From NCBI RefSeq assembly GCF_012035195.1, contig NZ_JAAVJH010000007.1, forward strand, positions 1-64,000: a DNA stretch of 64,000 nucleotides, in the 5' to 3' direction. The DNA comes from Sphingomonas corticis (lineage in GTDB: Bacteria > Pseudomonadota > Alphaproteobacteria > Sphingomonadales > Sphingomonadaceae). Below, one piece after another: positions 19,504 through 40,644 of this stretch. Each line of letters begins with the position of its first letter. Within the stretch, counting starts at the first letter, position 1. The notes beneath the pieces are model-generated. The model did not search any database and was not told where the DNA came from. It saw only the letters and a program-made list of their open reading frames with translations. The translations under genes were made by a program, and so were the position numbers.

Positions 19504-20582
<1,079 letters not shown>

Positions 20583-21659: not shown

Positions 21660-21731
21660 GGTCCCTCTCCCGCGGTTCGCCCGCCGTCCCGCCCCGCTTA
21701 GCGAGCGCGATTGACACGTACAACCGGCGAT

Positions 21732-21745
21732 GTTTATCGTTAAAC
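21732..21745. promoter_or_regulatory. LacI-type operator in the divergent control region
   Basis: GTTTATCGTTAAAC has 5-bp GTTTA/TAAAC arms around a central CG, the classic LacI-family layout. It lies between the regulator (start 21659, minus) and the lipoprotein (start 21790, plus), so one bound site could control both directions. The 11-mer ATCGTTAAACG recurs at 19487-19497. Confidence 0.6.
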
Positions 21746-21789
21746 GAAGCCGGCGAGAGGCCGGTCTCGGGGAAGGTGAACCGCACGGA

Positions 21790-23064: not shown

Positions 23065-24344
23065 CCCGGCGCCGCGACCTGCTTCGCTATGGCGCGGCCG
23101 CGCTGCTCGCGGGCTGCTCGCCGCGTGGGGGCGAGCGACGCGTCGACCGCATCCGCCTGTGGGTCGGTCCGAACGCCGCGGAGGAATCGTTCTGGAAGGT
23201 CGCCGTCGCGCGCTGGAACGAGGCGGGCCGCGGGTTGCCGGTCACCTTCACCACCATCCCCACTGCGGGCAATTCGGAGGACACGGTCCTCTCCGCGCTG
23301 ATCGCGGGAACCGAGCCGGACCTGTCGACCAACATCTTCTCCGGCTTCGCGGTGCAGCTGGCGACGCTCGGGCAGGTCGAGGATCTGGCGGCCATGCCGG
23401 GCTATGACGCGCTGGTCGAACGGCGCCGGATGCGCGCGATCGTGCCCGGCTGGACGCAGGACGGCCGCGTCCATGCCCTGCCGATCTATTCCAGCCCGAC
23501 GCTGCTGTGGTGGCGCGCGGACCTGCTGGAGGCGAACGGGCTGTCCGCGCCGCCGCGGACCTATGACGAGGTGTATGCCTTCTCGCAGCGCTACGGCGGC
23601 GCAAGGGGGCGGTCGCGCTACGGCATGCAGGTGATCGCCGGCCGCGCTTGGCAGGATCGCTGGTTCGACTTCATCTCCTTCTACTATGCCGCGGCGGACG
23701 GCCGTCCGTACCTGGACGGCGGCCACGCGCTCTACGCCAATGCGGCGGGGTTGCAGGTGGCGACGTTCATCGACCGCATGTTCCGTGCGCGCTGGACCGC
23801 GATGGATTTCGATGCGGAGGAACCCCTGGTCTCCGGCCTCGCCGCGGGGGCGGTGCGCGGGCCGTGGGACGTGGAGCGGTTCGCCAACCTCTATCCCGAC
23901 ACGCTGGCGCGGATCGCCGTGGGCCCGATGGTCGCCGCCACGCCCTCGCAGGAGCCGGCCGCCACCTTCTCCGACAGCAAGGGGGTCGTCATCTTCCGCA
24001 ACAGCCGGGTCAAGCGGCAGGCGTTCGACTTTCTCGCCTGGGTCTTGGGCGACGAGGCGATGAACCTGCTGTGGCTGGAGAAGACGGGGCTCTCGCCCGC
24101 CCGCGCCGACCTGCTGGAGAACCCGCGTTTCGCCGGTTACTATCGCACCAGCGCGATCGGACGCGCCTATGCCGAGCATGTCGCGAGCGCGCGCCCGCCC
24201 GCGCTGTCCGAACACACGATCGACGTGCAGAAGATCATGAGCGCGCAACTGATCGAACCGCTGATGACCGGGCAGCGGAGCCCGCGCGCCGCGCTGGCGG
24301 ACGCCGCCGCGCGAACGGACCGGATGCTGGAGGCGCAGGGTTGA
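23061..24344 (+). CDS. ABC transporter extracellular solute-binding lipoprotein
   Basis: 427 aa, family 1 carbohydrate-binding protein. The N-terminus (TRRRDLLRYGAAALLAGC) combines a twin-Arg-like start with a lipobox, so it is probably anchored in the inner-membrane outer leaflet. Domain hallmarks include DRIRLWVGPNAAEESFW, the TEPDLSTNIFSGFAVQL strand, VHALPIYSSPTLLWWR and the late AFDFLAWVLGDEAMNL. It begins with GTG inside the stop region of the preceding gene (4-bp overlap) and its stop overlaps the first permease start, so the three are translated in series. Substrate: a sugar or glycoside, unidentified. Confidence 0.9.
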   Translation: MTRRRDLLRYGAAALLAGCSPRGGERRVDRIRLWVGPNAAEESFWKVAVARWNEAGRGLPVTFTTIPTAGNSEDTVLSALIAGTEPDLSTNIFSGFAVQLATLGQVEDLAAMPGYDALVERRRMRAIVPGWTQDGRVHALPIYSSPTLLWWRADLLEANGLSAPPRTYDEVYAFSQRYGGARGRSRYGMQVIAGRAWQDRWFDFISFYYAAADGRPYLDGGHALYANAAGLQVATFIDRMFRARWTAMDFDAEEPLVSGLAAGAVRGPWDVERFANLYPDTLARIAVGPMVAATPSQEPAATFSDSKGVVIFRNSRVKRQAFDFLAWVLGDEAMNLLWLEKTGLSPARADLLENPRFAGYYRTSAIGRAYAEHVASARPPALSEHTIDVQKIMSAQLIEPLMTGQRSPRAALADAAARTDRMLEAQG

Positions 24345-25234
24345 TGCGGTGGACGGGCAACGGCCGCGGCCTGTCGCGCGAGGCGATCGTCGGACTGGCG
24401 CTCGCCGGCGCCTACCTGCTCTTCACCGCGGTGTTCTGGGCATATCCCTTCTTCTGGCTGGCCAAGCTGTCCGTCACGCAGTGGCGCTTCTTCGACCAGC
24501 CGGTCTTCACCGGCGCGCGCAACCTCGTCCGCACCATGCAGGATCCGCAGTTCCTCGGTTCGTTGTGGAACGTGGTGCGCTTCCTCGCCTTCTACCTGCC
24601 CCTCGCGTTCGGCGGCGCGCTGCTGGTGGCGTTCGGCCTGCAGCAGGTCGGGCGCGGACGCGCGTTCGTGGCGCTGTGCTTCCTCCTGTCCAACGTGTCG
24701 TCGGGTGTCGCGCTGTCGCTCGTCTTCCTCAAGATCTTCAGCTCGACCGGGCCGCTCAACAACGCGCTGGACGCGGCGATCGGCGTGCGCATCCCGTGGA
24801 CCAACCATCCGACGCTGGCGATGCTGGCGATCGCGCTGGTCGTCGCGTGGAAGTTCGTCGGCTATTACGGGCTGATCGTCTATTCGGGACTGCTGACGGT
24901 ACCCAGGGAGTTGTACGATGCGGCGCGGCTGGACCATGCCGGGCCGCTGACGCGGCTGCTCCGTATCACGATGCCGATGCTCAATCCGCAGCTGATGATG
25001 GTGCTGACGTTTGCGATCCTCGTCGCGTTCGGGCTGTTCACCGAACCCTATCTCATCACCGGCGGCGGGCCGGCCGACAGCACCGCCACGCCGCAGATGA
25101 TCATCTACGAGACCGCGTTCCGCCGCCTGCAGCCCAGCCACGCGGCGACGATGAGCATCGTCATCTCGCTGGCGTCGTATGTGCTCGTCGTGCTGGCGCG
25201 GCGATTGTTCGAGAAGAAGGTGGTGATCGCATGA
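24344..25234 (+). CDS. ABC sugar transporter permease, MalF/UgpA-like
   Basis: 296 aa with six membrane segments. The cytoplasmic EAA loop that docks on the ATPase is readable as YDAARLDHAGPLTRLLRITMP near residues 190-210. The length is short for MalF, as in most UgpA-type permeases. Its ATG overlaps the stop of the binding protein gene, and its own stop overlaps the next permease start (ATGA). It forms the inner-membrane channel with the downstream permease and the ATPase at 19504-20586. Confidence 0.9.
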   Translation: MRWTGNGRGLSREAIVGLALAGAYLLFTAVFWAYPFFWLAKLSVTQWRFFDQPVFTGARNLVRTMQDPQFLGSLWNVVRFLAFYLPLAFGGALLVAFGLQQVGRGRAFVALCFLLSNVSSGVALSLVFLKIFSSTGPLNNALDAAIGVRIPWTNHPTLAMLAIALVVAWKFVGYYGLIVYSGLLTVPRELYDAARLDHAGPLTRLLRITMPMLNPQLMMVLTFAILVAFGLFTEPYLITGGGPADSTATPQMIIYETAFRRLQPSHAATMSIVISLASYVLVVLARRLFEKKVVIA

Positions 25235-26082
25235 GGACGCGTCTTTCCGCCCTGCTCCGATCGAAGACGCCCGGTGGATGGGCAGCGACGGTCGCGATCT
25301 ACGCGCTCGCGCTCACCTGGCTCTATCCCTTCGCGTGGATGGTGGCGGCGTCGCTGAAGCCGACGCCACAGATCTACACCACCGCGCTGTTCGCGGGCGA
25401 CTGGACGCTCGACAATTTCCGCTTCCTCTTCGCCACCGCGGACAAGCTGGATCGGCCGTTCCTCCAAGCGCTCGGTATCTCCGCTTTGGTCACGCTGTGC
25501 GTGACGGCGTCGGTGCTCGTCACCTCCGCCTTCATCGCCTTCGCGCTCGCGCGGCTGCGCTTTCCCGGGCGCAAGCTGTTCGGCGACTTCCTGCTGCTGC
25601 AGATGGTCATTCCCACCACCATGTTCATCCTGCCGCTGTTCGTGCTGGTGAAGGAACTGGGACTGCTCAACTCGCTCGCCGCGCTGATCCTGCCGTTCAT
25701 GATGTCGGGGTGGGGCATCTACATGATGTCGCAGTCGTTCCGCGCGATGCCGGAGGAGTATTTCGACGCCGCGCGTCTCGACCGCGCCAGCCTGTGGCAG
25801 ACGGTCGCCCGGGTGGTGATGCCGCTGAACACCTCCATCATCGCGATCGTCGCCCTGTTCACCTTCACCGGCACGTGGGACAATTTCCTGTGGCCGCTGA
25901 TCGCCATATCCGAAGCGGACCGGATGCCGCTGTCCGTACTGCTGGCGACGTTCAGCAAGCAATATGGCGGCTATGCCGGGCCGGTGATGGCGGGCGCGGT
26001 GTTGCAGACGCTGCCGCTCGCACTGCTGTTCCTCGTGTTCCGCCGCCAGTTCCTCCAGGGCATGGCGTTGAGCCTCAAGTGA
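25231..26082 (+). CDS. ABC sugar transporter permease, MalG/UgpE-like
   Basis: 283 aa with six predicted spans. The first follows a short basic N-terminus (VAIYALALTWLYPFAWMVAA). The EAA loop is YFDAARLDRASLWQTVARVV, near residues 180-200, followed by MPLNTSIIAIVALFTFTGTW and the family ending MALSLK. It is the second half of the channel; the 4-bp overlap with the first permease supports equal synthesis. About 50 bp separate it from the DUF1861 gene. Confidence 0.9.
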   Translation: MRTRLSALLRSKTPGGWAATVAIYALALTWLYPFAWMVAASLKPTPQIYTTALFAGDWTLDNFRFLFATADKLDRPFLQALGISALVTLCVTASVLVTSAFIAFALARLRFPGRKLFGDFLLLQMVIPTTMFILPLFVLVKELGLLNSLAALILPFMMSGWGIYMMSQSFRAMPEEYFDAARLDRASLWQTVARVVMPLNTSIIAIVALFTFTGTWDNFLWPLIAISEADRMPLSVLLATFSKQYGGYAGPVMAGAVLQTLPLALLFLVFRRQFLQGMALSLK

Positions 26083-26134
26083 GCCCCGCGATCATTTCAG
26101 GAGATATCCGCTGACCCGCGAGAGCATCATCCGC

Positions 26135-27109
26135 GTGAAGACCATGGCCGACGCCTTCGCCGCAGACGTAATGGCGGAGCCAAAAGCCACGGGCAAGCTT
26201 CGCTTCGCCGGCGTCGGCGACCGCGACGTCTACAACATCTCCGCGCCCTTCCACTCGGCCGGGCGGCGCGTGATCGCGGGACGGGTGGAGCGGCGCGACA
26301 GCGAGGATTCGATCGCCGTCTTCTTCGAGGAGACGGACGGGATCTGGTCCCCCATCCCGGGCGCGCCGCAATTCCGCCTCCAGGACCCGTTCGTCGCGGA
26401 GATCGCGGGGGAACTGGTGTTCGGCGGGGTGGAAGTGGACTTGCGCCCGGCGCAGCCGATCTGGCACACGGTCTTCTACCGCGGCACCGACCTGTTCCAT
26501 CTGCGCCCCTTCTTCGCCGGTCCGGTCGGCATGAAGGACATTCGGCTGTGCGAACTTGCCGACGGTCGCGTCGCGATCTTCACCCGGCCGCGCGGGAGCA
26601 AGGGCGGGCGGGGCACCATCGGCTACACCGAGGTCGAAGCGCTCGACGCCATGACGATCGAGGCGATCGAGGCGGCGCCGATGCTGGACGACATGTTCCA
26701 TCCGCTCGACTGGGGCGGCGCGAACGAAGCGCATCTGCTGGCGTCGGGCGACATCGGGGTGATCGCACACGCCGCCTTCTTCGAGGACGACATCCTCTAC
26801 GGCAAGCGACGCTACTACGCGGTTTCCTTCGTCTACGATCCCGCGGCGCACGCCTGGCGCGATTACCGCATCATCGCCTCTCGCGACCAGTTCCCGCCCG
26901 GTCCGGCCAAGCGCGCCGACCTCGTCGACGTGGTGTTCTCATCGGGGATCGAGCAGGTGGGCAGCGCGACCCGCCTCTTCGCCGGCACCTCTGACGCGGA
27001 GGCGCAATGGGTCCACATCGACTATCCCTTCGACGCGCCGCTGGCGAGGACGAGCCCGGTCGAGGCGATCGTGCCTGCGGAGCAGGTGCCGCACCGGATC
27101 CTGTCCTGA
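26135..27109 (+). CDS. DUF1861 family protein (beta-propeller, glycosidase-like)
   Basis: 324 aa. The sequence matches DUF1861: LRFAGVGDRDVYNISAPFHS, the VIAGRVERRDSEDSIAVFF strand, WHTVFYRGTDLFHL, FFAGPVGMKDIRLCEL, VAIFTRPRGSKGGRGTIGY and LDWGGANEAHLLASGDIGVI. The repeats suggest a five-bladed propeller like GH43/GH130 enzymes, and the family is commonly found in sugar loci, but its reaction is not established to my knowledge. No signal peptide is visible, so it acts in the cytoplasm on the imported sugar. The start is uncertain: GTG at 26135 is used, but CAGGAGATAT lies ideally before a CTG at 26111 in the same frame. Confidence 0.75.
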   Translation: MKTMADAFAADVMAEPKATGKLRFAGVGDRDVYNISAPFHSAGRRVIAGRVERRDSEDSIAVFFEETDGIWSPIPGAPQFRLQDPFVAEIAGELVFGGVEVDLRPAQPIWHTVFYRGTDLFHLRPFFAGPVGMKDIRLCELADGRVAIFTRPRGSKGGRGTIGYTEVEALDAMTIEAIEAAPMLDDMFHPLDWGGANEAHLLASGDIGVIAHAAFFEDDILYGKRRYYAVSFVYDPAAHAWRDYRIIASRDQFPPGPAKRADLVDVVFSSGIEQVGSATRLFAGTSDAEAQWVHIDYPFDAPLARTSPVEAIVPAEQVPHRILS

Positions 27110-27163: not shown

Positions 27164-28333
27164 TCAGTCGGTGGCGGCGATCACCGTCACCTTGCTCCCC
27201 TCGATGATCGAGACGCTCTGCCGCGATCGCGACATCCGGCGCAGGCTGTCGCAGATCCGCATCCGGTACAGGCGACGGCCCTCGTCCTTCAACACCGCCA
27301 CGATCTGCCCCGCCGCCTCCAGGTACACGGCGACGACCAACGCCGCGCGGGGATCGGCGACCCCTTCCCTGCCGATTCCCCTGGCACGCGCGCTCCGCGC
27401 CTCGATATCGCCGGGAACGAACATCCTGACGGTAGGCGCGCCGCCCGCCCCTGCGCCGTGCAGCGGCGAGCGCGCGGGCGCGTAGACGATCGCCGCGGAC
27501 GCGAGCGACGCCGGCGGAAAGGCCGCGCCGCGCAGCAGGATGGTCGCCTTGCCGGACACGTCACCGGGCGCGTTCCCGTCGATCACCGTGGCGGGCTGCC
27601 CCTGCCGCTCGCTCCAGGCGGCGACGGCGCGCACCTGGTCGCCGTCCGCCGGGTCGACCGTGCCGCAATCCACGCCGGCGGACCGCTCGTGCACGGCGAA
27701 GGTAGGGCGAGCCGCGTCCCCGCCCCGCCACGCCAGGTCGAGCAGCGCGTCGCCGCCGGCCTCCGTGGTGAACGCGAGATCGCGGCCGTAGAGACCACCC
27801 GATCGGCGAAGGTTCGCGCCCACCGCGTCCAGCTGCGCCATCAGCGCCCGCTGCGCCGGCTCGTCCAGCCCCGCCCCGGCGGTCACGATCCTGATCGTCA
27901 CCCGGCGAGGCTCGACACCGGCGGTCGGCACCGCCGGAAGCGCGCGCAGATAGTCGGCCAGCGCCGCGATGTCGCGCCGGTCCATGCGGTAGGCCGGCAT
28001 GGCGGCGGACAGGTGCCTGCCGTCCCGGCCGCGCGCTCGGGTCAGCGCTTCCGCCAGCCAGCCCGACGACTTACCGCCAAGGGCCGCTGCCGCCCCCGTC
28101 AGGTCCGGCGCGACGATCGTACCCTCGCTTCCCCCCGCCGCGCCGTCGCCGTGACACGCGCGGCAGGCGCTCGCCGGCCCGACCGGTAGCCAGGCGCCGC
28201 CCATGAAGCGCGTGGCGATCGCGGATCGTCCGGTGCCGAGTTCGTAGATGTCCCGTCCGGCCTCCACCTCCCGCGGCGACGCGGCGCCGAGCAGCGCCGG
28301 CGTCGCCAGGGCGCCCAGCGCCCGCGCGATCAC
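27164..28333 (-). CDS. Exported c-type cytochrome, last gene of the oxidase operon
   Basis: 389 aa. An N-terminal signal (IARALGALATPALLGAAS) is followed by a monohaem cytochrome c domain, about residues 20-130, with the haem site ACRACHGDG and a possible Met ligand in LSAAMPAYRMD. The remaining 240 residues (RVTIRIVTAGAGLDEPAQRALMAQL onward) look like a second periplasmic domain of unknown role, perhaps a binding-protein-like fold. GTG at 28333 overlaps the SCO stop as GTGA. It is the natural electron acceptor or donor for the multicopper oxidase system upstream in the operon. Confidence 0.8.
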   Translation of the reverse strand: MIARALGALATPALLGAASPREVEAGRDIYELGTGRSAIATRFMGGAWLPVGPASACRACHGDGAAGGSEGTIVAPDLTGAAAALGGKSSGWLAEALTRARGRDGRHLSAAMPAYRMDRRDIAALADYLRALPAVPTAGVEPRRVTIRIVTAGAGLDEPAQRALMAQLDAVGANLRRSGGLYGRDLAFTTEAGGDALLDLAWRGGDAARPTFAVHERSAGVDCGTVDPADGDQVRAVAAWSERQGQPATVIDGNAPGDVSGKATILLRGAAFPPASLASAAIVYAPARSPLHGAGAGGAPTVRMFVPGDIEARSARARGIGREGVADPRAALVVAVYLEAAGQIVAVLKDEGRRLYRMRICDSLRRMSRSRQSVSIIEGSKVTVIAATD

Positions 28334-28914
28334 GCGGGGACCAGCCACTTGCGTGCCTCGCCGGCGATCAGGTCCGGGGCCGGCGCGCCGTAGAGACGGC
28401 TCCAGCGGGGTGCGCCGGCGCGGCCGATCGCGATGACCGGCGGATGATCCTCGACGCGGGGAGCCAGGCTGTCGACGCCTTCCTGAAAGCGCTGCGTCTC
28501 GTCCAGTGCGCCGCGCAGGAAGTGCCATCCCCGCCCGGCACGTTGGGCGTCGGCGAAGCGGACCAGGGCCTCGGGCGTATCCGTCAGCGGCGCGATCGAT
28601 ACCGACGTGAAGACCACGCGCGCGTCCATCTCGCGCGCGAGCAGCCGCTGCGCAGCGGACAGCAGCGCGGCCTGCATCGGACAGATGGTGGAGCAGCCGG
28701 TGAACATGAAGTTCAGCACCGTCACGCGATCCCGCATGAAGTCGCGGATCAACAGGCCGCGCCGGCGCGATCGCGCATCGAGAACCGGCATTTCGTGCAG
28801 GCGGATCGGGAACCGCGCCGCCGGAACCGCGGCGCCGGCGATTGCCGATCCGCTCGTCAGCAGGAGCGAAGAGGTGCCCGCGACGAACGCACGTCGATCG
28901 ATCGAAAAGGTCAT
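28330..28914 (-). CDS. SCO1/SenC/PrrC family copper-handling protein
   Basis: 194 aa. A Tat-like or Sec signal (DRRAFVAGTSSLLLTSGSAIAG) precedes a thioredoxin fold with the copper-binding CxxxC motif (Cys74 and Cys78 in GCSTICPM) and a conserved-type His at about 157. SCO proteins deliver copper to, or reduce thiols of, copper sites in exported oxidases. Its place within a multicopper oxidase operon suggests that the oxidase is its client. It overlaps both neighbours by 4 bp. Confidence 0.9.
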   Translation of the reverse strand: MTFSIDRRAFVAGTSSLLLTSGSAIAGAAVPAARFPIRLHEMPVLDARSRRRGLLIRDFMRDRVTVLNFMFTGCSTICPMQAALLSAAQRLLAREMDARVVFTSVSIAPLTDTPEALVRFADAQRAGRGWHFLRGALDETQRFQEGVDSLAPRVEDHPPVIAIGRAGAPRWSRLYGAPAPDLIAGEARKWLVPA

Positions 28915-30680
28915 AGTGCCAGATCCCGAGAGAGTGTGGCGACCGTGCCGTCCGCGGCGATGACCTCGACGAACAAGCGATAGGCCCCCGGTGCCGCGCG
29001 GTCGCGCGTCGCGAGCAGGAAGCCGTCGCCCTGCCTCACCGGATCGAGAAAGCTGCGCCAGCTGCCATCGGCCCGCATCAGCAGCGCACGGGCCGGCACC
29101 GTCGCATCGGAAAGCGTCAGGCGGATGCCGGTCTCGACCAGGCTGACCTGCATCTCCGTGGCGGCCACCGCCGCGACCGGGCGCGCCCTGGCCATCCGAG
29201 GCCGGCCGGTTCCGACAACGAAGCTGCGGCATTGCAGCAGGTCGGGGCTGTCGGTGCGGATCACCGCCCGATACGCGCCCTCGGCGGGTGCGGTGAAGCT
29301 CGCGACATAGCTGCCGCGGGCCTTGGCGGGAACCATGCCGCGTTGACGGATCGCGATGCCGGCGGTCTCGCCGGCACGCAGCGGCACCATCGCCATGGCG
29401 GCCTGGGCGCCGCTCTCCGACACGATATAGGCGCGGCGTTCGCGGCTGCTGGCGACCAGCACGCCGCCTGCCGGTATGCGCACCAGGTGCGGCAGCGGAC
29501 CGGCCACCTGCGGAACGTCCGACGCCATCCCGGCGGCGATCGCGGCGAGGCCGGGCGCGGCGCCGTCCGCGTCGAAGGTCACGCGAGTGACGCCGCCCTG
29601 GCGGCGATGCATGAAGTACAGGAAGGCGTCGCTGAACGTCATCTCGATCACCGGGTCGGGCATGACCATGGACCAGCGGACGCTCGTCGTTCGCGTGTCG
29701 ACGATCGCGATGGTGGTGCCGGCCGCGTCCGCAAGCGCCACCCAGCGGCCCGTCGGGTCGGCCGCGATGCGATCGGCCGCGAAGGCCAGCGGCAACCGGC
29801 GGACGTCGGACGGCTCGTCGAGGTCCGCGGCGTAGAGCGTGCGACCGTCCGCGGCCAGCGCGAACAGGCTGTTGGCAAGGGGTGCGAGCACGGCGGCGCC
29901 GACCGGTCCCGGCAGGCGGAACCCCGGAGCACCGGCCTGCAAACCGCGCCCCTGCCCATCGGCAGACAGCGCGATCAGCCGGTCGTCGCGATCGGCGAGG
30001 ACGGTGACGGCGCCGCTGCCGACCGGCACGGTCGCGGCGATCCGCCCGGCGCCATCGACGGGCACCGCGCGCCCGTCGCGCAATCCCACCCAGAAGCCCT
30101 CTTCCACCGCGGTCAGCGAGTGCGCGGGGGCGGGCAGGGCCACCGGCGTCAGCCGGCGCAGCGCGGCGTCGGCGAGCGTCAGCGCGCCGTCCTGCCCCCC
30201 GATCATCCCCAGCGTGTCGCCGTCGCGCGTAATGGCCCAGGCGCTCGGCAGCGCGCGGATCGCCGTCACCGCGCGCAGGTTGGCACTGGCGAGGTCGAGC
30301 ACCGGATCGACCAGCGCGACGTGGCGGTCGCGAGTCGCCTGGATGATGTCGAATCCGATCAGCGGGATCACCTGATCCGGCAATTGACTGGCGCGACCGA
30401 CGCGCGCGTACCAGTCCTGGCAGCTGGTGCCGTCGTCGGGCACGATCCACGCGGCGATGCCCAGCCCGCCCAGCGCGAAGCCGCTCGCCGGATCGCGCAC
30501 GGAAACGGAGAGGCGGGCCGGCCTGCCCGGTTCGACCCTGCCGGACGTCCTCGGCTCGCCCGCGACCGTCGCCGAGATGAACTGCGCCCCCTCCGCGCGC
30601 TTCTCCTCGGCGATCGTCGGCGCGGCCGCGACCAGCGCGATCAGCGCCAGTCCGGCGAAGCAGACGGCCGGAGCCCGCAT
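28911..30680 (-). CDS. Secreted propeller-like protein of the oxidase operon
   Basis: 589 aa. Signal peptide APAVCFAGLALIALVAAAPTIAEE. Residues about 30-130 form a beta-sandwich-like region (EPGRPARLSVSVRDPASGF, AAWIVPDDG). Residues about 130-430 are repeats of 40-50 residues typical of a beta-propeller (RHVALVDPVLDLASANLRAV, WVGLRDGRAVPVDGAGRI, TLYAADLDEPSDVRRLPLAF, TIAIVDTRTTSVRW). The C-terminal part has further immunoglobulin-like strands (GSYVASFTAPAEGAYRAVIR). I do not recognise the family. Its start overlaps the oxidase stop (ATGA), so the two are translationally coupled; it may be a partner or scaffold. Confidence 0.7.
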   Translation of the reverse strand: MRAPAVCFAGLALIALVAAAPTIAEEKRAEGAQFISATVAGEPRTSGRVEPGRPARLSVSVRDPASGFALGGLGIAAWIVPDDGTSCQDWYARVGRASQLPDQVIPLIGFDIIQATRDRHVALVDPVLDLASANLRAVTAIRALPSAWAITRDGDTLGMIGGQDGALTLADAALRRLTPVALPAPAHSLTAVEEGFWVGLRDGRAVPVDGAGRIAATVPVGSGAVTVLADRDDRLIALSADGQGRGLQAGAPGFRLPGPVGAAVLAPLANSLFALAADGRTLYAADLDEPSDVRRLPLAFAADRIAADPTGRWVALADAAGTTIAIVDTRTTSVRWSMVMPDPVIEMTFSDAFLYFMHRRQGGVTRVTFDADGAAPGLAAIAAGMASDVPQVAGPLPHLVRIPAGGVLVASSRERRAYIVSESGAQAAMAMVPLRAGETAGIAIRQRGMVPAKARGSYVASFTAPAEGAYRAVIRTDSPDLLQCRSFVVGTGRPRMARARPVAAVAATEMQVSLVETGIRLTLSDATVPARALLMRADGSWRSFLDPVRQGDGFLLATRDRAAPGAYRLFVEVIAADGTVATLSRDLAL

Positions 30681-33600
30681 CAGTCCGGCGACGGAGGCGG
30701 GCATAGCCGGTCCGCCGCGGTGGCGTCGCCCGGCGCGCGCGCCACGATCATGCCCCAGGCCCCGCCGCCGACGAACTGCGCCGGGCCGTCCCGCCACAGC
30801 CAGCATCCCTGCTCGACCCGGTCGATCACGGCAGTCACGTCCTTGCGCGGGGCCAGCAGCGCGGAGGCCGGCGAGCCGAACTTGGGAAGGTTGTGATCGA
30901 GGTAGCGGTGGCCGTAGGTGACCAGCGCGCGCTGGCGCGCCCGCCCGCCGGGGTGCACGGCATGGATGACGAGCGTCTCGCCCTCCACGACGGGGATCAG
31001 CGGCGTCTCAACCGCGAGCCCGTCGGGCGCGCCGCGCTTCGGATCCGACCAGATGTCGCGCGGGAACGTCACGGTGTTCAGGTCGACCAGCGCGGCCGCG
31101 CCCGTCTCGGGATGGGGTTTGGCGTCGCGCCAGCTGGTGCCGAGGCGCGCCCAGAAGGGTTCGGTGCGGTAGTTCACCGCGACGTCGCCGCTGTCGTAGC
31201 TGTCGTCGCAGACATGGCAGTCGGCGATCGATGCCTTGCCGCCGCGCTCCTCGGCGGTCAGCGGCCCGCCCGGGGCGGGATGGCGCGCGACCTCGGTCTT
31301 CAGGTTCAGGCCGTCCTGATAGACCAGCACCGCCTCGCGATGGACCTGCCCGTTCGCGCGCGTGACGCGCGCCAGCGTGGGATCGTCGGCGTCCGCCTGC
31401 CAGGTGGCGTCGGACGGCTCGATCACCAGTGCGCCGACCAGCCCCATGGCGGGATGCTTGATCGGATCGGCGAAGGAGGTCAGCGATGCCACCATGCCGC
31501 GCTCCGTGGCGAACGGCGTGAACGCCCGGAACTTCGACGGCGCCGATTTCTTGCGCAGCGTGGCGAAGGTGCCGGCGAACCAGACCTGCGACCGCGCCCT
31601 CCGGTTCGCGACCTCGGTGCCGGCATAACCGGTGTGCAGCACGATGCCCGTGGGCTGCCCGCCCAGGTCGTTGGCCCCGGTCGCCGTGCCCGGCGAGCTG
31701 CGCATGTTGTGCGTCACCAGCTGCGGCACGATCGAGACGTTGGCGGACGCGGCCAGCCGGTCGGCGGCGGTATGGTCCGAAATCTCGCGGTCGCCGGACG
31801 ATGACGGGACGATCGGCGGCAGCACGGCATTGCCGACCTTCGACGAGCGGACGAGCGCGGCCGGCAGATCGTTGCGCAGCTCCACGACGGCGAAATCCCC
31901 GGCGTTCATGCGCAACACCAGCGGCCTCGTCGCGGTGACTGGCGCGGCAGGCTCGCACTTCATCGTGCGCACCAGCTGCTCCATGGCCTGTTCGTTCGGT
32001 GCATCCCCGGGGGTGATCCAGGCTCCGCTGTCGCGGCCGGCGAGAGCGGGATCGGTGACGGCGACGTAGCGCAGCGCGTCGGGATCGCTGATCGCCTCGC
32101 GTCGATTGTAGACGATCGGTCGCTGATCGACGGCGACGCAGAACTTGCGCAGCCGGAACCGGTCCATGCCCGAGCCTTTGCTGAAATCGGGCAGCATCTC
32201 TCCCTGGAGGACCGACCAGGTGCCCAGCGGCGGCACCACGGCGGCGCCGTCGCGGACCGCGACGGGCGGATCGGCAGGGCCGCAGCCGCTCAGGCGCCGG
32301 CCGCGAACCGTGGCCAGCCGACAGCCCACGCGGGACGAACCCTGCGCCGAGGCGGGCGCGTCGAGCCGGCTCTTCCAGTAATCGGCGCCCGCCGGATCCT
32401 GCGCGCCCTTCGCATCGGGATAGGTGCGGATCAGGCCCCAGGCCCCGTTCCACAGCGCATCGACCGTGCCGGCGTCGTACCGGAAGTCCACCGGTTCGCC
32501 GTTGCGATAGGTGCTGGACGACAGGGGCGTGTCGAGGTCCATCTCGAAATGCTCGGAGATGCCGATTTCCTGCGATGCGACCAGCGGGCTGGCCGGATCG
32601 CCGGGCTGGCGACGCCACGACAGCCCGTTGATCTCGAACACGTGCTGGACCTCCTGTGCACCCTGGATCAGGCGGACCAGCGCCTTGTCGCCCACGTAGG
32701 CCTCGAAGATCTCCGTGGAGGGATCGCCATCGGCGTGGTTGCATCGCTGGTCGATCGCGTCGAGGTCGAGGGGGCGGGCGGCCGTGCCGCAGCGGCGGGT
32801 CGATCCCGCGAATACCGGCGCGATCGCGTTGCCGCCGCGGCGATGGACGAAGCTGGAGAAGGCGTAGGCCGGATCCCCGCGCTGGCCGGAATGCTGGGTC
32901 CATCGGCCGCTGTAGTCGCCCAGACGCAGCGGCAGCGGCTCGGTCTTGTAATTGAACAGATAGGGGTCGTGATGATCCACCGAGATCGCCTCGGGCCGCT
33001 GCGGCGCCGCGATCGGGCGCCCGTTGGCGGCGAAGGTGACGCGCTGTCCCGGGGGCGCATGATCGTCGTCGATCGGATGGGCGGGATTGGGGCCGCTGCC
33101 GTCGTAGAGGAGCGCGAAATCGGCAACCGCCAGCGCGAACTCGCGGCGGTCGCCGCGCAGGAACGGCGCGGCGCCGGAACCTGACGGGGTGGAGACGATC
33201 GCCTGGGTACCCACCGCCGCGCCGCTGCCGTCGGCGCCCAGCTTCGCCATCGACGTGCCGTCGGGATTCCGCCAGCGCGACTTCTTCGGCTCGACGATCA
33301 GCGCGCTGTAGAAGCCGTGCTGCTGGATGTTCGACGGGCCGAAGTGATCGTGGGTGAAGACGGTGCCCAGCGTCTGGTCCTTGCCGGACTGGTCGAGACG
33401 GGGATCGGCCCACCACCGCTGGTAGGTGGACTGGTAGCGCGCCTCGGCGTCGGCGGGGACGCCCAGCGTCGTCGGCTGGCCGTCCGCCGCCACCACCGCG
33501 CCGCCGGAGGCGGCGGACGCGTGGATCAGCTCGGCGATGATCTCCGACGCCAGCGTGCCGTCCTCATAGTTGAAGCCGTTCGCCGACCCGTCCGACGAGG

Positions 33601-36232
33601 TCACGTCGAACTTCACCAGGTGGATATGCTGGCCGATGATGTCGGTGGGCGCGGCCACCTGGAACGGGTCCCGCCCGGTCTTCGCGGCCGTGCGATTGGT
33701 GTGGCGGAAGGTGACGCAGTCGCCCGAATGCACGCGGAAGAAGAAGGGGTCCGCCGCCTGCGGCGTGCGGGCGCTGCGCTGCAGGTTCCACTGGAATCGC
33801 GGCAGGTCGGCGTCGAGCACGTTGATGCGCGCCTGCGGATCGTGCCAGCCGTAGCGGTTGACGAGCAGGTTGGTCTCGATCGCGGAGGCGTTGTAGCGGA
33901 CCTGCGGGGCACCGGTGGGACAGGGGTTGCCGAACGGCGCGCCGGGCGCCGCCGGGCGCCCGTTCAGGCGGAATCCGTCGGGCGTGCGGGCCTGCGCGTG
34001 GAAGGCCATCGCCGCCTGTTCCAGCGCGGTGCCCTGCTGCGGCAGCAGCTGGAGCGAGACGCGATCGATCGTGAACGTCAGGTCGCCCTCGTCCAGCCCC
34101 TTGTTCAGCAGGCTTGCGGCGGTGGCGGGGTCGCCCAGCGGCTTGCCGAACGCGCTCCGCTTGCCCTCGCCGGTGAGGTGGCGTGGCAGGCCGCCGTCGC
34201 GCGCCATGTCCAGCGGCGGTTGGGGCGCACGGAAGCCGGGCCTCCCGGGGATGTAGAAGGGGTAGCCGGGCATGCCGTTGGCAGCGTAGCTGGGCCGCGG
34301 GGCCAGCGGCATGTTCGGCAGCGGCACCAGCGCGGGAATCGGCGTGCCCCCGGTCAGCATGCCGTTGGCGTGGCGCTGCCGCGGGGTCGTCCCCGTCACC
34401 GGATCCGTACCGGGCCCCTGCCACTCGGTCATCGCGGTGCCGGGTACGCGGTTCAGGCCGCCGCCGTCGGGCAACAGGCGCGTGCCGTCCTCGAACACGT
34501 CGTGCGTCCGCCATAATCCCCACATGCCCTGCGCGAAGTGCGGGTAGAGGTGGCAGTGGAAGATCGAATCCCCCGGCCCGAGATTGCGGTTGCCGCTCCC
34601 GCCATATTCGATCTGGTAGGTGAAGCTCTGGAATGGGCCGATCGTCTGGCTGTCGAGATAGTTGCTCGCGCTGTTCGCCTCCTGCGACAGCCACTGGTGC
34701 GCGTGCAGGTGGAAGACGTGCGTCTCCTTCGGCCCGGCATGGACGTTGTGGAACTCCACCGGGTCGCCCAGGTAGCTGTGGTACACGTTGCTGGGGTCGT
34801 CCGGATATTGCGGCAGCAGCGCGGGGTCGCCGTTCGCCCAGCTCTGCAGAAAGAACTCCTCATAGGCGCAGTCGACGCAATTGCGCGCCGGGCCGACGCC
34901 GGCGCGGTTGGAGATCATCACCGTGCCCATGCCGCTGGCGCCGTAGTTGATCGCGAAGCCGTCGCGCGCGCCGACGATCTGCTTGTGCCGCGCCTGCGCC
35001 TTGGCCCAGCTGTCGGCGGGATCGGTGCGGTCGAGCGTGGGGCCGTTCAGGATCGCATAATCGGGCGCATGGACCGTCTTCAGTTCGTCGTGGAAGACGA
35101 TCGCGAACTCGCGGTAGGGGCAATGCGCCGGCCGGCGCCATGCCGCCATGGGCGTCTTGCCCACGTCCTTCCCCGCGTCATGCGGAGCGCAATCGGCCGC
35201 CCCGGCCGGGACCGGCGGCGCGACGATCGCGGTCAGATCGGAATGGACGATCCGCCAGCTGCCGTCCCCCTGCCGCTCGTGCATGGCGGCGACGGGGTGG
35301 CCGCCGCGGGTCGCGTCATAGTCCAGCGCACCCGGCGCTGCCCGCCGCTCGCATCCGGTGCCGCTCTCCGGTCCGCCGCGCAGGCAGGCCATGTCCTCGG
35401 CCGATACCTGGCTGCGGTAGACGCGCGCGTCGCGGGGCTCGACGACGATCATGCCGAACAGGCCGTGCGTCAGCGATCCGCCGTCCCCCTCCCCGCCCTG
35501 CACCGCGGCCAGGCTGGAGAAGAAGTGGCTGCCGCGCCGGTCGCCGACATAGCTGTACTCGATCGCCGCACCCGGGGCGACGCCGCGCAGGCCGGTGGCC
35601 GCCGGATCGTCGCCGTTCAGCGTCCGCAGCCCGACGACCGCGATGCCGGCCAGGCGGGTCGCAGGATCGTTGGCGGGGTCCGGCAGCGTGCGCGGATCGA
35701 CCGTCTCCAACTCGGGCGCTTCGCCCGGCTCCGCGGGCTCGGCGACCTTCTGCACCGTCGTCAACGCGGGTGGGACGGCCACGCCGCCGACCGCGCCACG
35801 ATCGAGCGGGCGTGACCGTCCCGGCATCGGCATCAGCAGGTTCTGGAACCGGATGACGAGCCGATCGCCTTCGTTGATGCGCAGCACCAGCGGACGCGGG
35901 CGGTATTGCGGCTTGAGCATGGCCAGACCCGGCCGGCACCGGGCCGCATCCTCGACGCCGCCCGGGCGGCCGGGAGCGCGCGCGCATCCCGCCACGTGAT
36001 CGCGCAGGGCGTAGATCATGCCCCACGGATTGACCGAGCCGAAGCGATTGTAGACCAGCGGCTGATTGATCGCCACCACGTCGGCATGGACCGTCCGCCC
36101 CGCCCCTGCCGGCGACGGCTCCGGCGCGGCCTGTGCCGCGCGGGCCGGCTCCGCACGGGCGTGCCTCGCCGACACCCCCCCGGCGAGGCAGGCGGCCAAT
36201 GCGACGCCCCGCAGGGCGTTGGTGATCCACAT
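30680..36232 (-). CDS. Giant multicopper oxidase (MnxG/McoA-like)
   Basis: 1850 aa, against about 450-550 for a laccase or CopA. A signal peptide (ALRGVALAACLAGGVSARHARA) is followed by a chain of cupredoxin-like domains. Copper motifs are clear: HVFHLHAHQW near residues 503-512 and HCHLYPHFAQGM near 558-569 (trinuclear and type 1 ligands with axial Met), HIHLVKFD near 864 and FTHDHFGPSNIQQHGF near 958. GSHFFSSLAAVQGG and LTHGLFGMIVVEP near 230-260, and a partly degenerate third unit (AFTPFATERGMVASL, MGLVGALVIEP), complete the picture. The size and domain chain recall Pseudomonas manganese oxidases MnxG and McoA. Four overlapping genes downstream supply a propeller protein, SCO and cytochrome c. 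The substrate is inferred, not shown. Confidence 0.85.
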   Translation of the reverse strand: MWITNALRGVALAACLAGGVSARHARAEPARAAQAAPEPSPAGAGRTVHADVVAINQPLVYNRFGSVNPWGMIYALRDHVAGCARAPGRPGGVEDAARCRPGLAMLKPQYRPRPLVLRINEGDRLVIRFQNLLMPMPGRSRPLDRGAVGGVAVPPALTTVQKVAEPAEPGEAPELETVDPRTLPDPANDPATRLAGIAVVGLRTLNGDDPAATGLRGVAPGAAIEYSYVGDRRGSHFFSSLAAVQGGEGDGGSLTHGLFGMIVVEPRDARVYRSQVSAEDMACLRGGPESGTGCERRAAPGALDYDATRGGHPVAAMHERQGDGSWRIVHSDLTAIVAPPVPAGAADCAPHDAGKDVGKTPMAAWRRPAHCPYREFAIVFHDELKTVHAPDYAILNGPTLDRTDPADSWAKAQARHKQIVGARDGFAINYGASGMGTVMISNRAGVGPARNCVDCAYEEFFLQSWANGDPALLPQYPDDPSNVYHSYLGDPVEFHNVHAGPKETHVFHLHAHQWLSQEANSASNYLDSQTIGPFQSFTYQIEYGGSGNRNLGPGDSIFHCHLYPHFAQGMWGLWRTHDVFEDGTRLLPDGGGLNRVPGTAMTEWQGPGTDPVTGTTPRQRHANGMLTGGTPIPALVPLPNMPLAPRPSYAANGMPGYPFYIPGRPGFRAPQPPLDMARDGGLPRHLTGEGKRSAFGKPLGDPATAASLLNKGLDEGDLTFTIDRVSLQLLPQQGTALEQAAMAFHAQARTPDGFRLNGRPAAPGAPFGNPCPTGAPQVRYNASAIETNLLVNRYGWHDPQARINVLDADLPRFQWNLQRSARTPQAADPFFFRVHSGDCVTFRHTNRTAAKTGRDPFQVAAPTDIIGQHIHLVKFDVTSSDGSANGFNYEDGTLASEIIAELIHASAASGGAVVAADGQPTTLGVPADAEARYQSTYQRWWADPRLDQSGKDQTLGTVFTHDHFGPSNIQQHGFYSALIVEPKKSRWRNPDGTSMAKLGADGSGAAVGTQAIVSTPSGSGAAPFLRGDRREFALAVADFALLYDGSGPNPAHPIDDDHAPPGQRVTFAANGRPIAAPQRPEAISVDHHDPYLFNYKTEPLPLRLGDYSGRWTQHSGQRGDPAYAFSSFVHRRGGNAIAPVFAGSTRRCGTAARPLDLDAIDQRCNHADGDPSTEIFEAYVGDKALVRLIQGAQEVQHVFEINGLSWRRQPGDPASPLVASQEIGISEHFEMDLDTPLSSSTYRNGEPVDFRYDAGTVDALWNGAWGLIRTYPDAKGAQDPAGADYWKSRLDAPASAQGSSRVGCRLATVRGRRLSGCGPADPPVAVRDGAAVVPPLGTWSVLQGEMLPDFSKGSGMDRFRLRKFCVAVDQRPIVYNRREAISDPDALRYVAVTDPALAGRDSGAWITPGDAPNEQAMEQLVRTMKCEPAAPVTATRPLVLRMNAGDFAVVELRNDLPAALVRSSKVGNAVLPPIVPSSSGDREISDHTAADRLAASANVSIVPQLVTHNMRSSPGTATGANDLGGQPTGIVLHTGYAGTEVANRRARSQVWFAGTFATLRKKSAPSKFRAFTPFATERGMVASLTSFADPIKHPAMGLVGALVIEPSDATWQADADDPTLARVTRANGQVHREAVLVYQDGLNLKTEVARHPAPGGPLTAEERGGKASIADCHVCDDSYDSGDVAVNYRTEPFWARLGTSWRDAKPHPETGAAALVDLNTVTFPRDIWSDPKRGAPDGLAVETPLIPVVEGETLVIHAVHPGGRARQRALVTYGHRYLDHNLPKFGSPASALLAPRKDVTAVIDRVEQGCWLWRDGPAQFVGGGAWGMIVARAPGDATAADRLCPPPSPD

Positions 36233-36252
36233 CACGGCGTTCGTGCCCCCTG

Positions 36253-36903
36253 TCAGGCGATGATGGAGATGAAGTCGATCGCGAGTCCCGATGGATGCAG
36301 GTCCGTGTCCGGGTGGACCATCGGATCGCCCCTGGCCCGGCGCTGACCGTTGGTGACCACCCATTGCAGCGTCCCGGCGAAACCGGCCGCGAACACGATC
36401 GGCGGATGCGCACGCCAGCGATAGAACCTGCCATGCTCGACCGGTCCCGCGTCCTTCGTCTGCGCAAAGCTGCTCCGTCGCACGATCTCGCCGGTCGGCC
36501 TGACGGCCAGGAACTGCGCGAAGGCGTTGAACGGATTGTTCTGCTGCCCGCGCAGGAAGATATAGTGGAACTGCAACTTGCCACCCGGCGCGATCGCGAC
36601 GTCCGCCCAGTAGAGCCGCGCCCCCTTGTGGCCGTATGTCACGGTGCCGTCGCCGTGATCGCAGGTGAACTGGCTCATGTCGGCGCCGGGAAACGCGCGA
36701 ACGCCGGCGCCATTGTGATGCGGATCGTCGATCAGGCAGAAATAGCCCGAGGTCTGCGGAAGGATTTCGATGCCGGGCTCGACGTTCGTCTTGTCCTGGG
36801 CGCGAAAGCCCCAGTCCATCGACTTAAGGAAGCGCACCCGGCCCTCGCTGCCGAAGCCCTGGGGCAAAGTGCTTTTCGCGAAAGTCTGCACGGCGACGGG
36901 CAT
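36253..36903 (-). CDS. Hypothetical protein upstream of the multicopper oxidase
   Basis: 216 aa, no signal peptide seen and no recognised domain. It is Gly/aromatic-rich with many predicted beta strands (GRVRFLKSMDWGFRAQ, EILPQTSGYFCLIDDPHHNG, GARLYWADVAIAPGGKLQFH). It ends IDFISIIA. The ATG follows GAGGAAAG, and only 20 bp separate it from the oxidase start, so it probably leads the operon. A role in delivery or as a substrate-related factor cannot be judged. Confidence 0.7.
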   Translation of the reverse strand: MPVAVQTFAKSTLPQGFGSEGRVRFLKSMDWGFRAQDKTNVEPGIEILPQTSGYFCLIDDPHHNGAGVRAFPGADMSQFTCDHGDGTVTYGHKGARLYWADVAIAPGGKLQFHYIFLRGQQNNPFNAFAQFLAVRPTGEIVRRSSFAQTKDAGPVEHGRFYRWRAHPPIVFAAGFAGTLQWVVTNGQRRARGDPMVHPDTDLHPSGLAIDFISIIA

Positions 36904-36997
36904 CGTGCTTTCCTCAGAAGGACGAATCAGGTCCGCGATAGATTTCGATCTTGCCAGAAACGACGCACGACATGATCCTGAAAACTCGGGTCCTAGT

Positions 36998-39193
36998 TTA
37001 CCGCATTGGCCACCACGCCTGCATCCTGTACCGGGCAGGCCGGCCCTTCATCGCCGCATCGTCGACCGCTACCACCCACGGGTGGCGATCCCGCGCTCGC
37101 CGCACCGTCACGATCCGCCCGGTGGCGAAGGTCACCGCCACGCCCCCGGTCCGCTCCAGCGTCGCGCGGTCCAGCGTCAGCCAGCGTGCGCGGCAGCGGC
37201 GCGGCAGGCGGCGCTCGCTGACCACCACGTCGGCGCGGCGGCACAGCGGCACCAGCCGCGCCGCGGGGACGAGGAACGCGCTCCTCGTCGCCAGCACTTC
37301 GCGCCCGCCGCGCGCGATGCGGCACAGGTCGCGGTTGCAGCGCGCGGCGGGCAGGTCGGAGAGGAGCGTGGGCGCGGCGTCGTCGCCCTCCACCCGCGCG
37401 CCCCCCGCCTCGCCCAGCGTGTCGCGCACGTAATCGCCCCCGCGGTCGCGCAGCATCGCCACCCGTCCGTCGTCAGTGCGCAGGCCCAGGTGCCGGCCGT
37501 CGCCGGTGACGATCAGGTCCGGCGGCGGCGTCGCGAGCGCCCAGGCCGCGCCGATCGCGAAGGGCAGTGCTCCCCAGCGGCGCCAGCGCGTGCGCCACAG
37601 CGCGAACCACAGCCCGCCCGAAACCATCAGCGCGAAGGCTCCCGCGGGCATCGCGGGCACCGCCGCCACCGCGCCCGGCGCCGCCGCGACGTGGCGGGCG
37701 ATGGCGAGCAGCAGGGCGATCCCCTGCCCCGCCACCCACCAGAGCGGCGCGCCCAGCCCGACCGCATCGAGCGCCAGCGCCGCCGCCTCCGCCGGCATCA
37801 CGACGAAGGTGGTGAGCGGGATCGCGACCAGGTTGGCCAACGCGCCGTACAGGCCGGCACGGTGGAAGTGAAAAGCGGCGATGGGCATCAGCGCCGCCTC
37901 CACGACCAACCCGGTGACGAGCAGGGAGACGAAGCCACGTCCCAGCCGTCGCGGCCATCGCTCCCCACGCGGCGACAGGAAGGCGCGCAGCGGCGCGTGC
38001 TCGTGGAGCGCCACGATCGCCGTCACCGCGGCGAACGACAGCTGGAAGCTCGGCCCCGCCAGCGCTTCCGGCCAGGCCGCAAGCACGATCAGCGCCCCCA
38101 CCGCCACCAGCCGCATCGTGATCGCCTCGCGCCCCAGCGCGATGGCGGCCAGGATCATCAGCGCGGCGACGCAGCTGCGGATCGTCGGCACTTCGGCGCC
38201 CGCCAGCCAGGTGTAGCCGATCGCCGCCAGCGCCGCCGCCGACCCCGCCAGCAGCGGCACCCGCCCGGTCAGCGCGACGCGGACGGACAGCGCCAGCAGG
38301 CGCGACACCACCAGCATCACCAGCGCCACCACCGCGGTGATGTGCAGCCCGCTGACGGACAGGAGGTGGGCCAGTCCGGCCCGGCGCATCGCCTCCGCGT
38401 CGGGCTCGCCGATCGCGCCGGTGCTGCCGGTGGCCAGCGCCGCGGCGATGCCGCCGGCCGATCCGTCGAGCCGCGACTCGATGTGCCGCGTCAGCCGCGC
38501 GCGGGCATCGGCCCGGACCTCGCCCGGCCGGATCACCGCCACCGGTGCGAAGCCGCGCCCGGTCGCGCCCCATTTCTGGAACCAGGCGACGCGCGCGAAA
38601 TCGTAGGCGCCGGGAACCGCGGGGGGCGCCGGCGGCATCAGCCGCGCGCGCAGCCGGATCGTCGCGCCCGGCGACAGCCCGGCGGGCACGTCCGCCGCGG
38701 CCAGGTTCACGCGGATGCGCCGCGGCGCCGGATCGGGCACGGGCGCCTGCCAGCGCAGCGCGACCAGCGTGACGCGCACCAGCGCCCGCGCGGGCAGCGG
38801 CTCCACCGCCGTCGCCTGTCCCTCCACCGCCACGATCGCGGCGCGCGCCAGCACCGGCGCCGCCACCCGATCCGCCCGCCACCAGATCAGCGCGACGCCC
38901 AGCGCCAGCACCGCGGCGCCGACCGCCACCGCGCGCCCCAGCCGTCCGCCGCCCCCGCCCGCCAGCGCCGCGCAGCCGACCGCCCCCGCCGCCAGCATCG
39001 CCGCCGCCCAGTGGCGCGGATCGGGCAGCAGCAGCCACGCCGCGATGCCGCCACCCAGCATCACGGGCAGGAAGAGGAACAGCTGGTCCCGCTCCGCCTC
39101 CAGACGCCGCTCCGCCGCGTCGCGCCAGCGCCCCACCGCGATTTGAAGCGGCCGGATTGCTTTGCTAGGGGCGGGCGCGGCGGAACTGGCCAT
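36998..39193 (-). CDS. comEC: ComEC/Rec2 family DNA-uptake channel protein
   Basis: 731 aa. An N-terminal membrane region with an OB-like soluble domain (residues about 90-230) precedes the Competence domain, whose signature [20 protein letters not shown] is readable near residue 280, and further spans ([17 protein letters not shown]). A C-terminal soluble region ([20 protein letters not shown] onward) is a metallo-beta-lactamase-like remnant in which the usual HxHxDH motif is not visible. In competent bacteria ComEC carries single-stranded DNA across the inner membrane. Start at 39193 is preferred to an ATG at 39232, which would lie inside gltX. Confidence 0.88.
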
Positions 39194-39222
39194 CGTTTCA
39201 CTCAGCCTGGGAGCAAGCGCGC

Positions 39223-40644
39223 GTGAGCGCAACCGAGATCAAGTCCACGTCGGACCAGGCGCCCGTCGTCACCCGCTTCGCGCCCTCGCCCACCGGCTTC
39301 CTGCACCTGGGCGGCGCGCGCACGGCGCTGTTCAACCTGCTCTTCGCGCGTCACCACGGCGGGCGTTTCCTGCTGCGGATCGAGGATACCGACCGCGCCC
39401 GCTCGACCCAGCCCGCGATCGACGCGATCCTCGACGGGATGCGCTGGCTGGGCCTCGACTGGGACGGCGACGCGGTGTTCCAGTTCTCACGCGCCGCGCG
39501 CCACGCCGAGGTGGCGCACCAGATGGTGGCGAGCGGGCACGCCTATCGCTGCTACCTGACCAACGAGGAACTCGCCGCCATGCGCGAGGAGGCGCAGGTG
39601 GCGAAGAAGCCGCTGCGCATTCGCTCAACCTGGCGCGAACGCAGCGACCATTCGGCGGACAAGCCCTATGTCGTCCGGCTGAAGGCGCCGACCGAGGGCG
39701 CGACGACGATTGCCGACCGCGTGCAGGGCGAGGTGACGGTGCAGAACGCCGAGCTCGACGATCTGGTCCTGCTTCGGTCGGACGGCACGCCGACGTACAT
39801 GCTGGCCGTCGTGGTCGACGATCACGACATGGGCGTCACCCACGTCATCCGCGGCGACGACCATCTCAACAACGCCTTCCGCCAGCTGCCGATCTATCGT
39901 GCGAACGGCTGGCCCGAGCCGGTCTACGCGCACATCCCGCTGATCCACGGCGCGGACGGCGCCAAGCTGTCGAAGCGCCACGGGGCGGTCGGCATCGAGG
40001 CATATCGCGACGAGATGGGCATCCTGCCCGAAGCGCTCGGCAACTATCTGCTGCGGCTCGGCTGGGGCCACGGCGACGAGGAGTTCATCGCACGCGAGGA
40101 CGCGGTCCGCTGGTTCGACCTCGACCATGTCGGCAAGTCGCCCAGCCGCTTCGACCTGAAGAAGCTGGAGAACCTCAACGGCCATTACATCCGCGCCGCC
40201 GACGACGCGCGGCTGGCCGATCAGGTCGCCGCGCGGCTGGAACTCGATCACGACGACACGCGTCGCGCGCTGCTGGCGCAGGCCATGCCGGTGCTGAAAG
40301 TGCGTGCCGCGAATCTGAACGACTTGGCCGAGGGCGCGCGTTTCCTGTTCGTGTCCCGCCCGTTGCCGGTGGATGACGATGCGGCCGCGCTGCTCTCCGG
40401 CGACGCGCCCGCGCTGCTCGCCCGCCTCCACGCCGCGCTTGACGCGGTGCACAACTGGGATACGGAGGCTCTCGAAGACGCGGTACGGCAGGTGGCCGAG
40501 GCGGCGGGCGTGAAGCTCGGCCAGGTCGCCCAGCCGCTCCGCGTCGCCCTAACCGGTCGCAGGACGTCGCCCGGCATCTTCGACGTGCTCGTCCTGCTGG
40601 GGCGCGAAGAGAGCCTGGCACGGATTGCCGACCACAGCGCCTGA
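39223..40644 (+). CDS. gltX: Glutamyl-tRNA synthetase
   Basis: 473 aa, normal for the family. The class I nucleotide-binding motif appears as [16 protein letters not shown] (HIGH-equivalent HLGG) at residues 19-34 and the KMSKS-equivalent as KLSKRHG near 245. [21 protein letters not shown] and the C-terminal anticodon-binding helices are all in place. It charges tRNA-Glu (and in organisms with GatCAB possibly tRNA-Gln). GTG start at 39223 is supported by GGGAGCAAG upstream. It is 30 bp from the divergent comEC start and is followed by gltA. Confidence 0.96.

Follow-up and report, generated by a model that had tools for sequence, protein, structure and literature searches.

The 64,000-nucleotide stretch of DNA analyzed in this work (the window), which is part of a genome of 4.16 Mb, carries on its minus strand five genes that are arranged head to tail and encode a leader protein, a giant multicopper oxidase (MCO), a beta-propeller protein, an SCO protein and a cytochrome c (Table 1). 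We consider it rather probable that these genes form a metal-oxidase operon of the mnxG type, lying on a separate branch, whose exported MCO oxidizes Mn(II), and then Mn(III), outside the cytoplasm. All five reading frames were confirmed at the coordinates listed and their start codons were checked. The stop codon of the leader gene lies 20 nt before the start of the MCO gene and the genes that follow overlap by 1 bp (MCO/propeller), 4 bp (propeller/SCO) and 4 bp (SCO/cytochrome c); both these overlaps and the length of the oxidase had been given correctly in the preliminary description of this DNA. Third-position GC ranges from 0.84 to 0.90 across the five genes. The operon is not a product of chance, since approximately 100 other loci share the MCO family with its copper ligands and much of the order of the genes.

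Table 1. Coordinates of the operon genes and of the copper-site regions of the giant MCO within the window.
Feature	Positions	Strand	Characteristics
Leader gene	36253–36903	−	216 aa, uncharacterized; predicted all-beta jelly roll, MAM/carbohydrate-binding-module-like
Giant MCO	30680–36232	−	1850 aa, ATG start; MnxG homolog; N-terminal signal peptide by eye
MCO copper motifs C and D (residues 505–570)	34523–34720	−	putative T1 copper and half of trinuclear site
MCO copper motifs A and B (H869xH871, H961xH963)	33344–33628	−	putative other half of trinuclear site
MCO second C/D-like stretch (E1194, H1197, E1227, H1228)	32549–32653	−	conserved; full copper ligand set absent
Beta-propeller protein (YNCE/lactonase/cytochrome-D1-like family)	28911–30680	−	589 aa; signal peptide by eye
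SCO1/SenC copper protein	28330–28914	−	194 aa; C75, C79, H158; twin-arginine-like N-terminus by eye
Monoheme cytochrome c	27164–28333	−	GTG start; C57xxC60H61, M112; C-terminal region, where the family matches periplasmic binding proteins

An ORF of 818 aa on the plus strand (36770–39226) was considered as a neighboring gene and rejected; it has no Pfam match, its translation is rich in Arg, His and Gln, and comEC sits on the opposite strand. No sigma-54 site of the kind present in the P. putida mnxG promoters was seen between comEC and the leader gene, and within the window a sigma-54 pattern allowing up to two mismatches was matched 56 times versus 62.6 expected by chance.

In Pfam searches the MCO contains a single Cu-oxidase_2 stretch, and the NCBIfam model for MnxG (NF041487) matches it in five stretches with 668.3 bits (E 2e-200). 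The equivalog cut-off of this model is 3100 bits, and by this score the window MCO is not a member of the MnxG equivalog; the MnxG-like sequences G1407 (2183) and G1151 (2414), which served as proxies, are also below the cut-off. A search of the PDB sequences identified the Bacillus MnxG (9bxa) as by far the best match (E 1.8e-80), followed by two small laccases (3e-7). An AlphaFold model of the MCO core (residues 80–1278), constructed with 74 relatives, had a pLDDT of 84.2 and a pTM of 0.89. With this model 9bxa again ranked first in Foldseek (E 3.2e-58), and in VIA-align it had a Z score of 21.0 (3.1 Å over 739 residues, 35% identity), the next row reaching only Z 12.9; ceruloplasmin also matches the model (Z 12.7). 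As modeled over residues 80–1278, the window MCO thus has the fold and copper centre of MnxG and belongs among the giant MCOs of the broad MnxG/MofA-like kind. Kinship with MnxG and a metal-oxidase operon had earlier been suggested on account of size, with structure prediction proposed as a check; the NF041487, PDB and fold matches make this the best reading.

The conservation of the copper ligands was read in an alignment of 100 relatives, the window MCO included. The residues H505, H508, H510, H559, C560, H561, H565, H869, H871, H961, and H963 are identical in all 100 of them and M570 is retained in 99; the counterpart of the window H565 in the 9bxa chain is position 340, which is mutated in that entry (H340A). 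We take the cluster at residues 505–570 to represent motifs C and D of the MCO motif code and that at residues 869–963 to represent motifs A and B. The two clusters noticed earlier are thus present, but their interpretation as two separate copper sites is rejected, because each holds only part of the motifs that an MCO centre requires and together they form the halves of a single T1-plus-trinuclear centre. The alignment and the model support a T1 copper site in which H505, C560, H565, and M570 of one cupredoxin domain would be the ligands, and a trinuclear cluster to which H508, H510, H559, and H561 would contribute together with H869, H871, H961, and H963 of the next copper domain. These assignments pertain to the part of the protein that precedes its C-terminal third (1279–1850) and was covered by the core model and the position-wise ligand search. 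The second C/D-like stretch is situated in the place that another C/D pair would occupy, and its residues E1194, H1197, and E1227 (98 of the 100 sequences each) and H1228 (83 of 100) are also conserved; that they bind the substrate metal is a speculation.

The genes that follow the MCO on the same strand have the order of the mnxG operon of P. putida GB-1, which is listed in Table 4 of PMC11409713 as mnxG, a YVTN beta-propeller, SCO1/SenC, SCO1/SenC, an amino-acid ABC binding protein with a cytochrome c domain, and SurA. A beta-propeller lactonase-family protein and an SCO family protein are also named at Pseudomonas mnxG in the legend to Fig. 2 of PMC8218464. Hence, the propeller, which the preliminary description had held to be unfamiliar in the MnxG system, is a published component of the Pseudomonas operon, as are SCO and the cytochrome c. 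The window differs from the GB-1 operon in having one SCO gene rather than two (one SCO match in window positions 20001–46000), in the absence of SurA after the cytochrome, where the next gene is DUF1861 on the plus strand, in the extra leader gene upstream, and in the score of only 668 bits of its MCO against the MnxG model. According to PMC11930936 and PMC5906577, gene deletion identifies both MnxG and McoA of P. putida as Mn oxidases; the genes listed for the GB-1 mcoA operon in PMC11409713 include an SCO but not a propeller.

Among the partner proteins, C75, C79, and H158 of SCO are invariant in all 15 aligned rows, and the CxxCH motif and downstream Met of the cytochrome c in all 16. When searched alone in Pfam, the window cytochrome c shows only its heme domain; the profile of its family finds binding proteins of the branched-chain type (4n0q, E 9.7e-18) and Peripla_BP_6 is found in 8 of the 16 family members. 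The window propeller has no Pfam match of its own at 0.01, and its assignment rests on the family profile, which matches the YVTN-type surface-layer protein 1l0q (E 6.6e-57) as well as YncE and NirF; the Pfam families YNCE and Lactonase are matched by 12 and 9, respectively, of the 23 members.

The Bacillus sp. PL-12 MnxG (9bxa) resembles the window MCO in its fold and in the alignment of its copper motifs, but that structure contains 1217 residues versus 1850. The junctions within the window operon leave no room for small genes resembling MnxE/F. As a stand-in for the Bacillus type we used a homolog from a Priestia plasmid. Ahead of the MCO on the Priestia megaterium plasmid are two short genes for hypothetical proteins of 95 and 107 aa (L132, 3880–4524), at the place where MnxE/MnxF would be expected.

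The distribution of this gene order was examined in 99 loci from a genome-collection scan, a plasmid search and genome searches, from which two duplicates had been removed; 80 of the loci entering this set were the best of 584 confirmed ones. A propeller match was present somewhere in 74 of the 99 loci; of the 85 loci in which the sequence extends 2.5 kb or more downstream, 60 have it immediately after the MCO on the same strand. Where 6 kb or more was available downstream (71 loci), the full order of MCO, propeller, SCO, and cytochrome c was observed in 38 loci, whose record titles point to Pseudomonadota, Nitrospira, acidobacterial, myxobacterial and planctomycete (Jettenia) sources. As the profiles were trained on mostly the same loci, these counts indicate recurrence and are not independent tests. 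Two giant MCO genes occur in tandem in Sorangium cellulosum So0157-2 and Methylobacter luteus (L075 and L071). Among relatives of the window genome the giant MCO family is uncommon: the MnxG model at E 1e-20 had matches in 3 of 397 genomes of the family and 3 of 398 of the phylum, and the window MCO used as a query in 2 of 385 genomes of the class, the window genome being included in each case.

Phylogenetic trees were constructed using FastTree (100 rows) and IQ-TREE (32 rows). FastTree put the distant sequence L018 close to the outgroup and flagged its branch as long, and this sequence was omitted from the IQ-TREE analysis. In both trees the window MCO grouped with those of Sphingobium xenophagum (78% identity) and G189, a genome of the same family, with support of 100 (FastTree) and 100/100 (IQ-TREE). 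The next to branch were Competibacteraceae and Novosphingobium, together with a Sphingomonas MAG in the FastTree analysis, followed by the rest of the leader-bearing branch. The MCOs of Leptothrix, Sphaerotilus, and Rubrivivax, which are 38–39% identical to the window MCO, fell on the same side of the trees, the support for this side being 85 for 35 rows by FastTree and 91/72 for 20 rows by IQ-TREE; without row L056, the side containing Leptothrix was supported by 100 and 100/100, respectively. The highest-scoring MnxG-like sequences (G1151, G1407, and G1266; such proxies are 29–30% identical to the window MCO) fell on the opposite side, and the Priestia homolog is 25.5% identical. The window MCO therefore lies on a branch separate from those of the compared sequences that most resemble MnxG, a placement that is based upon proxies, as neither the MnxG nor the McoA of P. 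putida itself, nor any established MofA, is among the sequences compared. No Pseudomonas MnxG or McoA was found among 30 plasmid records or the best 80 of the 584 loci; when 94 genomes were searched for OprF no clear Pseudomonas centre emerged, and only MnxG-like proxies were obtained from 350 genomes.

At three of the four Leptothrix, Sphaerotilus, and Rubrivivax loci the giant MCO is also adjoined by propeller, SCO, and cytochrome genes; unlike in the window, these genes are oriented away from the MCO, and a leader was not detected at these loci. Two giant MCOs of L. discophora (L051 and L053), either of which may be MofA, branch on the side of the window MCO in both trees; a near relative of an L. 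discophora giant MCO is present in Sphaerotilus mobilis (L111). The mofB gene (mip/FKBP-type) of the L. discophora MofA operon has no counterpart by Pfam among the five operon proteins or their neighbors DUF1861 and comEC, whereas a cytochrome c, a candidate counterpart of mofC, is present. In PMC13386937, Sphaerotilus is described as not known to oxidize Mn and as having mostly moxA and rarely mofA. According to PMC11412304, MofA may act on Fe, and in iron-rich Leptothrix mats mofA ranks with the most highly expressed genes.

The closest named relative of the operon is on the 263-kb plasmid pSH1 of S. xenophagum (NZ_CP076558.1), where all five genes occur in the same order, whereas the window operon is located beside comEC-gltX-gltA; S. 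xenophagum PH3-15, which has this operon, was isolated from thermal water. The pSH1 copies are annotated as hypothetical proteins (oxidase, propeller, and leader), an SCO family protein and a c-type cytochrome. Two genomes of the same genus also have comEC-gltX-gltA, but tblastn searches of 19 kb around it in these genomes did not detect the leader, MCO, or cytochrome, nor the DUF1861 and ABC genes of the window. The 10 same-genus genomes listed contained no match to the MnxG model at E 1e-20. This absence and the plasmid location of the nearest named relative fit a gain of the operon by transfer. Convergent to the oxidase operon, window positions 21730–27109 hold an ABC transporter with a solute-binding protein and the DUF1861 gene, a block which may have arrived together with it.

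The leader protein had been described as unfamiliar from the MnxG system, and the mnxG operon as published in PMC11409713 indeed lists no such gene. It has no match in Pfam, where five of its relatives gave one sub-threshold match, and the best of its PDB sequence matches was not significant (E 0.21). Its structure model is all-beta (pLDDT 84.3), and the best VIA-align matches to it are the MAM domains of meprin (Z 13.2), reelin, and carbohydrate-binding modules such as the porphyran CBM 8xmz (Z 12.5); this predicted jelly-roll fold, common to CBMs and MAM domains, shows no function. Homologs of the leader were found in 17 of the 99 loci, in each case directly upstream of the MCO and in the same direction, and all 17 fall in one 29-row clade of the FastTree tree, which includes sphingomonads, Nitrosomonas, Nitrospira, Methylomonas, Meiothermus, and others. 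It was not found in the other 12 rows of this clade, two of which (L057 and L074) have their upstream flank cut off. Among 352 genomes of the window's family, only the window genome and G189 have the leader, both with this operon; in G034, a third family genome with a distant MCO, it was absent from the stretch read. No signal peptide was seen by eye on the leader, which argues against its simple export. A literature search, in which titles were surveyed in part, found no account of a jelly-roll subunit of this kind with an MnxG-like MCO.

In records titled Nitrosomonas europaea, Nitrospira (two), and Meiothermus granaticius (L050, L042, L052, and L080), the leader and giant MCO occur with no propeller, SCO, or cytochrome match in the available flanks. 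Plasmids of Paracoccus, Shinella, and Roseivivax have in the leader's place, directly upstream of the giant MCO, a divergent gene for a peptidase annotated as serine, S8, trypsin-like or C1 (L016, 7770–8672; L019, 3659–6599; L020, 3854–6730; L023, 4095–6698), and the MCOs there are longer (2347–2422 aa).

Oxidation of Mn by the window MCO is supported by the match to the MnxG model, the sequence and fold matches to 9bxa, the conserved ligands, and an operon order like that of GB-1 mnxG. Electrons from the metal would enter at the T1 copper and pass to the trinuclear cluster, where O2 would be reduced to water; SCO may load copper or keep it reduced, the cytochrome c/binding-protein fusion and the propeller may serve in assembly, docking, or electron transfer, and the jelly-roll leader could either dock the enzyme to extracellular polysaccharide or be an accessory subunit. 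This reading is weakened by the score far below the cut-off, the low identity to the nearest MnxG-like sequences, the lack of a P. putida-like sigma-54 site upstream, and the placement on the Leptothrix side, with the Sphaerotilus case (PMC13386937) and the suggested Fe role of MofA (PMC11412304). The last observations, along with the match of ceruloplasmin to the core model and the expression of mofA in iron mats, could instead indicate a giant ferroxidase or cuprous oxidase, for which any oxidation of Mn would be incidental. However, the fold is much nearer to Bacillus MnxG than to ceruloplasmin and the operon parts are those given for P. putida mnxG, and we regard such an enzyme as unlikely.

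It is still less probable that the operon acts upon an organic or nitrogenous substrate selected by the cytochrome c, propeller, and leader, with the MCO only passing electrons to O2. The periplasmic-binding-protein region of the cytochrome c family, the carbohydrate-binding-like fold predicted for the leader, and the leader-bearing homologs in records named as nitrifiers and methanotrophs are consistent with this, but a similar cytochrome/binding-protein fusion and propeller are listed for the P. putida mnxG operon, whose MCO oxidizes Mn. The absence of the genes from the same-genus genomes could also mean that the operon is part of an acquired island that is silent or decaying, without present function. 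We consider this very improbable, in view of the five open and closely packed frames, the intact copper, heme, and SCO ligands, and the existence of two other genomes that share the gene order and have MCOs 76–78% identical to that of the window.

Operons of this kind, including the propeller, SCO, and cytochrome neighbors of mnxG, are already known; what is new in comparison with the published mnxG operons, as judged from sequences, appears to be the leader-bearing branch with its conserved jelly-roll partner. We put forward tentatively the possibility that this branch represents a distinct metal-oxidase machine, in which the leader would be a dedicated, hitherto undescribed subunit that attaches the enzyme to mineral or polysaccharide; the natural substrate of this machine may not be the one used by Pseudomonas MnxG. 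Bacterial Mn oxidation drives the cycles of carbon and trace metals, and to our knowledge the giant MCO oxidases tested so far are from a few genera. The conserved unit of five genes, which occurs both on a Sphingobium plasmid and in the window genome, taken to be sphingomonad-like from its nearest MCO relatives, provides a tractable place to ask what the roles of the propeller, the cytochrome/binding-protein fusion, and the jelly-roll partner are, and whether the MofA-side branch oxidizes Mn or Fe.
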